Assembly: GCA_017546085.1 (NCBI GenBank)
Contig: JAFYXQ010000053.1
Coordinates: 1 to 34,131, forward strand
Direction of reading: 5' to 3'
DNA length: 34,131 bases
Source: Alphaproteobacteria bacterium
Lineage (GTDB): Bacteria > Pseudomonadota > Alphaproteobacteria > Rs-D84
The notes below the pieces were generated by a model. The model was not told where the DNA came from, ran no database searches, and saw only the letters and a program-made list of their open reading frames with translations. This document shows, piece by piece, positions 13,253-15,464 of this stretch; the stretch's first letter is position 1; each line of letters opens with the position of its first letter. The translations under genes were made by a program, and so were the position numbers.

Positions 13253-13281
13253 TTTCTTTGGTGATATATTTATGCTATAAT
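13253..13281 (+). promoter_or_regulatory. Extended -10 promoter of the leader RNA and secreted-protein genes
   Basis: TGCTATAAT (13273-13281) is a full extended -10. A weak -35, TTTCTT, sits 17 bp upstream at 13253-13258. The transcript should begin near 13288. Confidence 0.7.
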
Positions 13282-13287
13282 CCAAGT

Positions 13288-13466
13288 GTTGTGTATTATT
13301 TCACAACGGGGGCGTAGAAACCCTGAAATTTACAGTGTCCGTGGGGACATAAAACACCTCCAACCGATGGGTTGGAGGGGCGCTAAATATATTGAATAAG
13401 CCCGCTATTTTCTGTAAATTATAGTTTCTAACCTCCAACCGCCTTGATTAACAACGCGGTTTTTTG
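13288..13466 (+). ncRNA. Structured leader RNA with mutually exclusive helices and terminator
   Basis: About 180 nt between an extended -10 promoter and a strong terminator, with no plausible coding sequence. Helices seen: GTTGTG/CACAAC near the 5' end (13288-13307); a closing stem TAGAAAC (13315-13321)/GTTTCTA (13424-13430); a second stem AATTTACAG (13327-13335)/CTGTAAATT (13412-13420); inside it TGTCC/GGACA (13336-13349) and CCTCCAACC (13357-13365)/GGTTGGAGG (13370-13378). CCTCCAACC recurs at 13432-13440, overlapping the 5' side of the terminator stem. GGTTGGAGG can therefore pair with either copy, giving an on/off switch. The second copy could also pair with the GGGAGG ribosome site at about 13483-13488. 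It matches no riboswitch class I can name. It may be a cis-acting attenuator for the next genes or a free-standing small RNA. Confidence 0.6.
13437..13466 (+). terminator. Terminator within the leader of the 13496 gene
   Basis: AACCGC (13437-13442) pairs with GCGGTT (13456-13461), extended by TTG/CAA around ATTAA, and followed by T residues to 13465. It lies about 30 bp before the start codon, so the downstream genes depend on read-through or antitermination. Confidence 0.8.
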
Positions 13467-13495
13467 TTTATAACATAAAAAAGGGAGGAACGTAA

Positions 13496-14407
13496 ATGCG
13501 TACATCATTGGTTGTATTGCTGTCGTTGTTTGTTGGGGCCGCACATGCCACGACAGATTTATCGTCGGCGATTGAAAATGTTCGCGCCACATGTGGTGGA
13601 ATCAGTGCAGAATTATCAGATCTGAAGGTCAAGGCCGGAATTGCCACGGGCGTATCAGCCGCGGGCGCAGTTACCGGTGGTGTAGCATTGGGAACCGGTA
13701 TTGCAAAGGCAAAAGTAGATGCAAAAATTATGTGGGAAGAATTGTTGAAGAACGCAGAAAACAATAATGCAGTACTGCCATCATTAAATGAATCCGAGAA
13801 GGCAGAATTTGAAAAATATCTCGAAGAATACGATAGTTCCGTCGATGCTAAAACTAAAATATCTAAATTAAATGAAAAATCCACGAAACTGGGCAACATT
13901 CGTACTGGAACAATGGCTGCATCGACTGCAACAAATATCGCAAGTGCGGTATTGGCCGGCACCAATCGGGTCAAGGGTGATTTGAAACAACAAATCGATG
14001 CATGTTTGGAATCAGTTCGCGTATTATCCGATATTCGTATGCAGGCGCGCATTGACGGCAGCGCAACCGGCGAAGAATTATCAAATGCAGAAAACATTGT
14101 TCGCGCATGCGAAGAATGGGCAACCGTTGATATCAGCAGTATAAATAAAAAGGCCAAGGGTGCCGCAATAACAAGTGGTATTGGTGCGGGCATGGGCGCG
14201 GCAGGTACCGCGACAAGCGCGATTGTTAACAGCGATAAAAAAGATTTTGATTCTGACAAGGAAAAGAAATTAAACATGGCATCCAATGTGCTGGCTGGTG
14301 GGACTGCTGCTGCATCATTAACATCAGCGATATTAAACGGGACACAGATTAAGGCGATTAAACGTGCGGCCGCAGTTGCCGACGAATGCGAGGGGGCGCT
14401 AAACTAA
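13496..14407 (+). CDS. Secreted Gly/Ala-rich protein of unknown function
   Basis: 303 residues with a signal peptide (MRTSLVVLLSLFVGAAHA, cleavage after about residue 18). The mature protein alternates charged helices with three Gly/Ala/Thr-rich, weakly hydrophobic stretches: GVSAAGAVTGGVALGTGIA (about 52-70), a middle one (GTMAASTATNIASAVLAG) and AAITSGIGAGMGAAGTATSAIV. These resemble glycine-zipper membrane-inserting segments. Cys residues are few and scattered, and a last Cys lies near the C-terminus. The ATG has GGGAGGA upstream. The BspA-like gene begins 1 bp after the stop. The family is not recognised; an envelope-associated or membrane-active role is a guess from composition. Confidence 0.8.
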   Translation: MRTSLVVLLSLFVGAAHATTDLSSAIENVRATCGGISAELSDLKVKAGIATGVSAAGAVTGGVALGTGIAKAKVDAKIMWEELLKNAENNNAVLPSLNESEKAEFEKYLEEYDSSVDAKTKISKLNEKSTKLGNIRTGTMAASTATNIASAVLAGTNRVKGDLKQQIDACLESVRVLSDIRMQARIDGSATGEELSNAENIVRACEEWATVDISSINKKAKGAAITSGIGAGMGAAGTATSAIVNSDKKDFDSDKEKKLNMASNVLAGGTAAASLTSAILNGTQIKAIKRAAAVADECEGALN

Positions 14408-14408
14408 A

Positions 14409-15464
14409 ATGAAAATGAAAAACATATTATTTGGATTACTGATTGTTGCGCCGACGATTTCATACGGCAATGGCATTGAAAACAAACAAATACCATTTCA
14501 AATGATTTACGAAACTGTAAGCAATAATAGTACATATGAAACACTGTACAACAGCGATTTTGTTTATTATTTAAAAGAACAGGTGCCTGATCAAAAGTTT
14601 ACAATTGGCAATTTATTCAGTTCCTGTGTGGGATACACAAAAATAGATCAAAATATAGATCTTGAAATGTGTAAGAGTTTTATAAAATCGGTTGTTTACG
14701 AACAAAGAAGATCAATTACGGATCCAAGCAAGGCATTTATTGCCACAACAACGCCGGATACAACTGAATTCAAATTTAGTATTTATGCGGCTGGTAATTA
14801 TACTGTCGATTGTAGTGGTGAAAATCCCGTTCAAAAAATATCAATTACCAATGCGAAAACGGGTCAGGAAATTAAATGTAATTATACCAAACCCGGTGCA
14901 TATAAAATTATAATTGACGGTCGCGCCACGGGGTATGATAATTCTGTTCCCGCAATATCATTTGAAGAAAACCAAAACCTTGCCGGGATTGATGGCAGTC
15001 TGGGCGCAATATTCCCAACATTGGGTAAATCCCAACCGGTGTTCGCGAACACCTTCGCTAATTGCAGTGGCTTAACGGGTCCGATACCTGAAAACCTGTT
15101 TAGCGGGATAAGTGGCGCCCCGGCGGAGCGGATGTTCTTGGGCACCTTCTTTGGTTGCAGTGGGTTAACGGGTACAATACCCGAAAAACTGTTCAGCGGG
15201 ATAAGTGGTGCCCCGGCGGCGCGTATGTTCGCCTACACCTTCTTTGCTTGCAGTGGGTTAACGGGTACAATACCTGAAAACCTGTTCAGTGGGATAAGTG
15301 GCGCCCCGGCGAAGTGGATGTTCTACAACACCTTCACAAGTTGCAGTGGGTTAAGCGGTATTGTTGGGCCATCGATATTTGGCAAAATAACCCCGCCCAT
15401 TACCGAAAAATATGTATCAGAAGAAGAAACGTTTGAATCTAGTGGAATATTGTTTATGGAATAA
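14409..15464 (+). CDS. BspA-like repeat surface protein
   Basis: 351 residues with a signal peptide (MKMKNILFGLLIVAPTISYG). Residues ~120-180 form an Ig/PKD-like segment (FKFSIYAAGNYTVDCSG, then CNYTKPGAYKIIIDGRATGY) of the kind that precedes BspA/DUF285 repeats. Three full and one partial 31-residue repeats follow, starting at residues 215, 246, 277 and 308 with the pattern TFxxCSGLTGxIPExLF and SGISGAPAxxMF. Such leucine-rich-like repeats occur on surface proteins of gut and oral bacteria that adhere to host matrix or other cells. The C-terminus is short and has no visible anchor. Its ribosome site (GAGGGGG) lies inside the end of the preceding gene, so translation is likely coupled. A terminator follows. 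Confidence 0.85.
   Translation: MKMKNILFGLLIVAPTISYGNGIENKQIPFQMIYETVSNNSTYETLYNSDFVYYLKEQVPDQKFTIGNLFSSCVGYTKIDQNIDLEMCKSFIKSVVYEQRRSITDPSKAFIATTTPDTTEFKFSIYAAGNYTVDCSGENPVQKISITNAKTGQEIKCNYTKPGAYKIIIDGRATGYDNSVPAISFEENQNLAGIDGSLGAIFPTLGKSQPVFANTFANCSGLTGPIPENLFSGISGAPAERMFLGTFFGCSGLTGTIPEKLFSGISGAPAARMFAYTFFACSGLTGTIPENLFSGISGAPAKWMFYNTFTSCSGLSGIVGPSIFGKITPPITEKYVSEEETFESSGILFME
15051..15361 (+). repeat. 93-bp tandem repeats in the BspA-like gene
   Basis: Units begin at 15051, 15144 and 15237, with a partial unit from 15330. They are nearly identical at DNA level over long stretches, including silent positions, which indicates recent duplication or gene conversion and a potential for copy-number change. 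Confidence 0.9.

Follow-up and report, generated by a model that had tools for sequence, protein, structure and literature searches.

The window analysed here, the whole 34,131 nucleotides (nt) of contig JAFYXQ010000053.1 from an alphaproteobacterium of the order Rs-D84, carries on its forward strand a structured RNA element directly upstream of two open reading frames (ORFs). The first (13496–14407; 303 amino acids (aa), with a signal-peptide-like start) is the predicted controlled gene, and the second (14409–15464; 351 aa), which begins 2 nt past the stop of the first, is probably on the same transcript. Although a first-pass annotation had called the downstream proteins BspA-like, Pfam and PHROG searches returned no match for either of them. 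Relatives of the first protein were found at eight loci in MAGs of uncultured Alphaproteobacteria, six of them titled as deer, goat or sheep gut.

Upstream of the genes, TATAAT (13276–13281) probably serves as the −10 box of a promoter that belongs to the leader itself, judged by box statistics over 171 copies of the element. It is followed by the 5′ hairpin P0 (GTTGTG...CACAAC, 13288–13307) and by hairpin HP1 (GGGG/CCC, 13308–13323), whose 5′ side includes GGGGG (13308–13312) and whose loop holds a segment that we call a1 (TAGAAAC, 13315–13321). Next come a second segment, b1 (AATTTACAG, 13327–13335), and, in the interval between b1 and copy 1, a variable hairpin placed by folding and alignment (TGTCC/GGACA, 13336–13349). 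The core is a set of three strands in which CCTCCAACC occurs twice, as copy 1 (13357–13365) and copy 2 (13432–13440), flanking a single middle strand GGTTGGAGG (13370–13378). Enclosed between the middle strand and copy 2 are hairpin P4 (13379–13404), with the conserved loop AAATATATTGAATAA that we take to be of the kind named UAA/GAN; hairpin HP5 (CTAT/ATAG, 13405–13424), with the segment b′ (13412–13420) in its loop; and the segment a′ (GTTTCTA, 13424–13430). An intrinsic terminator (AACCGC...GCGGTT plus T-run, 13437–13465; stem 13437–13442/13456–13461, T-run 13460–13465) starts within copy 2 and stops some 30 nt short of the ATG (13496), and the sequence GGGAGG (13483–13488) forms the ribosome-binding site.

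We built a covariance model, R1, from 22 copies and pooled 175 records of the element, from which L036 (at a contig end) and three records with identical cores were dropped. The resulting 171 copies are the best-scoring among the matches listed, not a random sample; they include six from outside the order (L100–L105) and leave out one deleted copy (L003/L037). The structure in R1 contains the middle:copy 2 helix, HP1, P4 and HP5, and the letters of copy 1 are in its consensus, whereas a1:a′, b1:b′ and the terminator are absent from it. A −10-like box that matches at 5 or more of the 6 positions precedes 134 of the 171 copies (63/171 in shuffled sequence), its end mostly lying 24–29 nt before HP1, and a P0 hairpin of at least 6 bp is present in 147 of 171 (46/171 shuffled). 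The P4 loop reads AATAA or AATAC in 168/171 copies.

The first-pass annotation had proposed that two CCTCCAACC copies compete for one GGTTGGAGG and that copy 2 overlaps the terminator stem, and both proposals were borne out by the copies. The middle strand pairs with copy 2 over 9 bp in 167/171 copies, a count that arises partly by construction of R1, and with copy 1 over at least 8 bp in 151/171, against 7/171 for shuffled upstream sequence and 18/171 for a neighbouring region. The start of the terminator stem falls within copy 2 in 157/171 copies (43 of 513 shuffles), so that, as in an intrinsic-terminator attenuator, it is mutually exclusive with a conserved helix. Where the middle strand is altered, copy 2 is nearly always, and copy 1 usually, altered to match: the trio CTCCTGACC/GGTCAGGAG/CTCCTGACC occurs in five copies, and further co-varying trios are CCTCTCGC/GGCGAGAGG/CCTCTCGCC and TTTCCAACC/GGTTGGAAG/CTTCCAACC. 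There are several divergent single copies, such as those carrying TGCTGGAAG and GATTGGAAG, in which copy 1 does not match.

Analysis of the segments outside this trio revealed two further helices overlooked in the first-pass annotation, a1:a′ (13315–13321/13424–13430) and b1:b′ (13327–13335/13412–13420). Within a copy the a1:a′ helix averages 7.25 bp and the b1:b′ helix 8.78 bp (n = 171 copies); for each, the observed mean was reached in 0 of 5,000 permutations of the partners, compared with 4,972 of 5,000 for a control region. These four segments are the most variable parts of the element, and self-complementarity is the sole property conserved in them. The covariation score was 0.386, compared with 0.135 on shuffling (0/500; alignment A4, 108 distinct rows). 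Changes on both sides were seen for 4/5 pairs of a1:a′ and for 4/4 of HP1, 5/9 of middle:copy 2, 3/3 counted of P4 and 4/6 of HP5, the last four counts leaning towards the model because their pairs are contained in R1. The covariation that the annotation had asked for was thus found for both of the alternative folds, and comparison among copies shows two such predicted folds, each with covariation of its own.

The window RNA is more stable than 200 of 200 shuffled sequences (−61.5 versus a mean of −42.2 kcal/mol, z −5.1). Its best fold (−66.0 kcal/mol) forms a1:a′, b1:b′, copy 1:middle, the terminator and a further pairing likewise missed before, GGGGG (13308–13312) with CCTCC (13432–13436) of copy 2, all at once. 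Forcing the middle:copy 2 helix gave −47.4 kcal/mol, 18.6 kcal/mol worse; these energies are for the window copy and ignore pseudoknots and kinetics. Because they favour the terminator form, termination is the predicted default, and the fold closed by middle:copy 2 would be the antiterminated state.

The element is real, conserved and far more widespread than the window alone suggests. A DNA search of its own 0.82-Mb genome found 14 places at E ≤ 1, and one of relatives found matches in 24 of 40 genomes. R1 found 11 places in the own genome, of which one is cut by a contig end, one is the deleted copy (E 0.0014) and one a reverse-strand echo (E 0.59); the genome holds about ten copies, mostly before signal-peptide genes. 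R1 matched 172 of the 190 genomes that represented the order, where the numbers of copies per genome are to be read as 'at least'. Across the class, 18 of 386 genomes gave matches, and 14 of these 18 are not members of the order.

When eight own-genome copies were compared, self-pairing was the best or tied for best at both sites in L028, L029 and L031, and at a alone in L030. The second copy on L031, as well as L033–L035, did not stand out in this respect; these copies are more degenerate or have insertions, and their segmentation was poor. A copy-specific code inside the own genome is therefore only partly shown, being clear for about half of the copies. An exact search of the own genome with the a1..b1 pattern of the window copy found only the element itself, once per strand, and no second target elsewhere.

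Several copies have unusual forms. L003 (G000:C3:24943-25020), the deleted own-genome copy, lacks the stretch from the middle strand to a′ and the 5′ strand of the terminator, with a signal-peptide-like gene still present downstream; as a single case, it fits a leader whose output is termination. Two other own-genome copies (L007/L033 and L008/L035) have the strands CTCCTGACC/GGTCAGGAG/CTCCTGACC and contain an additional stretch with a U-tract hairpin between HP1 and copy 1, which resembles the form of sRNA-Xcc1, an RNA discussed below. A divergent own-genome pair (L031:1189-1319 on the reverse strand and 1501-1635 on the forward strand) precedes two related secreted proteins of 162–164 aa, and on L217 the element stands three times in tandem within about 600 bases (161-291, 406-530 and 645-772). 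By eye, the P4 internal-loop strands (GAATA, AAATAA) look swapped around an extra hairpin in L078, L079, L101, L103 and L104. One search pattern found no element on viral contigs; a looser one found it on three IMG/VR contigs (L229:12040-12176, L230:8460-8591 and L231:788-924), which may be prophage ends with host DNA. The followers on L229 and L231 resemble the secreted-protein family downstream of the element, and on L229 an ORF that looks lysozyme-like by eye lies about 2.5 kb from it.

Among the 165 copies that belong to the order, 127 have an ORF with a Shine–Dalgarno sequence beginning no more than 90 nt downstream, and the median distance from core to gene start is 44 nt. By a simple ad hoc rule, 85 of these 127 followers were called signal-peptide-like, compared with 37 of 118 other ORFs of the same loci, a background that includes spurious ORFs (Fisher p 2.9e-8), and with 4 of 22 ORFs of the window; the remaining 42 followers were not called signal-peptide genes. 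The followers as a whole belong to many families and have no common pathway; those without a signal-peptide call include helix-turn-helix-like proteins of about 60 aa (by eye; the one tested had no Pfam match), a UvrD-type helicase and a protein that we take to be ABC-transporter-like. The first-pass annotation had held that occurrence before unrelated genes or alone would speak for a free-standing small RNA (sRNA), and on this point the result is mixed: the followers are of many families, yet most are signal-peptide genes directly downstream, which argues for a leader. As a main reading, the free-standing sRNA is rejected on account of the placement of the element.

At gathering score, an Rfam search of the window returned two tRNAs and no riboswitch or leader family. 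The best match to the element was sRNA-Xcc1 (RF02221), at 28.7 bits (E 0.0059) in the window, at 39.1, 34.5 and 27.5 bits (E 0.0013, 0.016 and 0.73) in 3 of 16 divergent loci and, in a single genome from the order, at 39.7 bits (E 6.3e-6); in none of the window, the divergent loci and the order genomes did the element reach the gathering cut-off of 53 bits. In the reverse comparison, for which 26 of 30 sRNA-Xcc1 loci were used, R1 recovered ten at E ≤ 1; for eight of the ten E was ≤ 0.01, and the best value was 1.9e-10. In both RNAs the closing stem encloses two hairpins, the first of which has an AATA-type loop; a′ and the closing strand follow, and a1 and b1 lie upstream; the Rfam model spans only the 3′ half of this layout (87 positions). 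What sets the order's element apart from sRNA-Xcc1 is its strong copy 1, together with a terminator that overlaps copy 2.

A draw of 397 genomes from the phylum at large contained 57 with sRNA-Xcc1. A 2011 paper reportedly calls the sRNA-Xcc1 of Xanthomonas trans-acting in its title. Many of its loci show an upstream hairpin with a1, then b1 and a hairpin with a T-run, and carry a second pair of matching segments, a2 and b2, at a start codon; permutation over 30 loci gave 18, 0, 0 and 1 of 5,000 for a2, b2, a1 and b1, respectively. Ten follower proteins were tested for domains, nine picked by eye from the 30 loci and one from L102 (an R1 match in another family of the class), and yielded Bro-N in four (including L102), P22_AR and Rha in two each, and KilA-N and SymE in one each. 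Elsewhere, then, sRNA-Xcc1 loci often precede phage antirepressor genes or symE, retaining a2/b2 at the gene start, whereas the order's element has no clear a2/b2. A symE cassette with sRNA-Xcc1 upstream is likewise described for Xanthomonas integrons (PMC12444791). Two loci add side observations: on L122 (24-1193 and 1501-1584) a CRISPR-DR4 array is followed, about 300 bases on, by an sRNA-Xcc1 RNA, and on L116 a sub-threshold match to c4-2 (2890-2958; 34.8 bits, cut-off 41) lies about 1.3 kb from one on the same strand.

The first-pass annotation had left the choice between attenuator and riboswitch open. Its attenuator half is upheld by the covarying competing helices, the promoter-like box, the overlapping terminator and the proximity to a gene start, while a ligand riboswitch gained no positive support. 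Terminator/antiterminator riboswitches and amino-acid attenuators, like the element, set an antiterminator against a terminator by means of an anti-antiterminator strand; the element differs in having no metabolic target genes. We consider it unlikely that the element is an undescribed metabolite or ion riboswitch class, with P4 and its loop as the aptamer core and a ligand selecting the fold. The terminator/antiterminator build, the near-invariant P4 loop, the many copies per genome and the failure of every Rfam family to match at cut-off would suit such a class; against it, a1/a′ and b1/b′ are conserved solely in self-complementarity, the closest relatives are antisense RNAs and the followers share no pathway. 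A T-box was dropped on inspection because the middle-strand UGG is missing in CAGGAG variants.

The layout also resembles that of the C4 RNA of phages P1 and P7 (RF01695), in which a1 and b1 precede a three-stem RNA with b′ in a hairpin loop and a′ before the closing strand (P1 record; PMC5320573 and PMC2864571). In the P1 record the order is a1, b1, c4, a2, b2, then icd and ant. C4 is described as having three stem-loops, with b′ acting at the ribosome site, a′ giving specificity and RNase P cutting at GGW, and Acinetobacter baumannii has 21 related sRNAs (PMC5320573); the list of Weinberg et al. includes c4 and c4-a1b1 (PMC2864571). In C4 the GGW stands where the closing stem begins; the middle strand of the element begins GGT, which may correspond to it. 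As in C4, a1 and b1 lie upstream and are complementary to a′ and b′ (0/5,000 permutations each). No clear counterpart of the a2–b2 target of C4 was found at the ribosome sites of the followers (758 and 118 of 5,000, n = 151), in a test for which the 30 sRNA-Xcc1 loci, with 18 and 0 of 5,000, served as positive control; the weak downstream excess for b′ (118/5,000) nevertheless suggests that a2/b2-like sites could be present in some cases. C4 acts at a2/b2 to block translation, whereas the element has its overlapping terminator. The Rfam C4 model did not match the window or the 16 divergent loci up to E 10, nor did R1 match P1 c4 up to E 1; the likeness to C4 therefore concerns the layout and the functional parts and does not prove membership.

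IsrK of the Salmonella prophage Gifsy-1 is similar in being a terminating or read-through leader with alternative long-range folds, two of which were tested, and with complementary segments within one transcript; unlike the attenuator proposed here, it controls translation of orf45-anrP (PMC4825925). The P4 CI RNA is grouped with it here through the discussion in that paper, not through sequence. In the portions of the open-access literature that were available, we found no report of the element in Alphaproteobacteria, nor of sRNA-Xcc1 as C4-like.

These relatives raise the alternative of a trans-acting antisense sRNA family, in which the terminated RNA or a processed core targets other mRNAs as C4 does ant. 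The relatives carry sRNA annotations, C4 undergoes processing and works via a′ and b′ (PMC5320573), and a2/b2 stand at start codons in sRNA-Xcc1 loci. We nevertheless regard this as improbable for the order's element, because clear a2/b2 segments do not precede the adjacent genes and the exact a1..b1 site of the window copy recurs nowhere else in its genome.

We instead favour, as reasonably likely on the sequence comparisons above, a self-antisense transcription attenuator that terminates by default and is built from a C4/sRNA-Xcc1-like module. In the terminated fold, GGGGG:CCTCC, a1:a′ and b1:b′ would build one long rod, copy 1 would pair with the middle strand, and copy 2 would contribute its 3′ half to the terminator. 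In the read-through fold the middle strand would pair with copy 2 around P4 and HP5 in a C4 RNA-like structure, blocking the terminator and exposing a′ and b′. We infer that the terminated fold is the default because it is 18.6 kcal/mol better for the window copy and copy 1:middle forms first; most transcripts would then stop close to 13465, giving an RNA some 178 nt long. Read-through would require a factor that opens copy 1:middle or favours the alternative fold, and in this way the leader would control the downstream gene. Masking of the ribosome-binding site by copy 2, suggested in the first-pass annotation, is possible, given that CCTCC and GGAGG are complementary; copy 2 is nearly invariant and anti-Shine–Dalgarno-like, and would pair with almost any Shine–Dalgarno sequence.

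A single conserved RNA-binding protein that reads the P4 loop and antiterminates a secreted-protein regulon could operate jointly with the self-antisense attenuator. The loop's conservation (even in the forms whose strands look swapped) and the genome-wide spread of the secreted-gene set speak for such a protein, but as the explanation in its own right we hold it very unlikely, since it leaves the copy-specific a and b segments unexplained.

The self-antisense attenuator would be a module probably of phage-immunity type. It may have descended from, or share ancestry with, phage-immunity antisense cassettes laid out as a1–b1, antisense RNA and a2–b2 at an antirepressor gene; in the order, a module lacking clear a2–b2 and having a strong copy 1 and an overlapping terminator would have multiplied before secreted-protein genes. 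More tentatively, and with considerable doubt, we can imagine an order-wide domesticated cassette that serves as a set of self-switching leaders, for the most part orthogonal and distinguished by their individual a and b codes, which choose secreted or surface proteins independently and are possibly bistable, in a manner resembling phase variation, or answer matching RNAs of related phages.

The analysis connects sRNA-Xcc1, an orphan sRNA of Xanthomonas, with the layout that phages use in antirepressor control, and adds a version that is chromosomal, spread across the order, coupled to a terminator and located for the most part upstream of genes for secreted proteins; it also supplies a covariance model for an element without an Rfam entry of its own. 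The hosts are small-genome gut bacteria in which the element is multi-copy, with differing self-matching sequences. If the proposed reading is true, the copy-specific codes would make specificity directly testable, and the antisense logic of phage immunity would have come into common use for cis-regulation among lineages whose genomes measure about 0.5–1.1 Mb.
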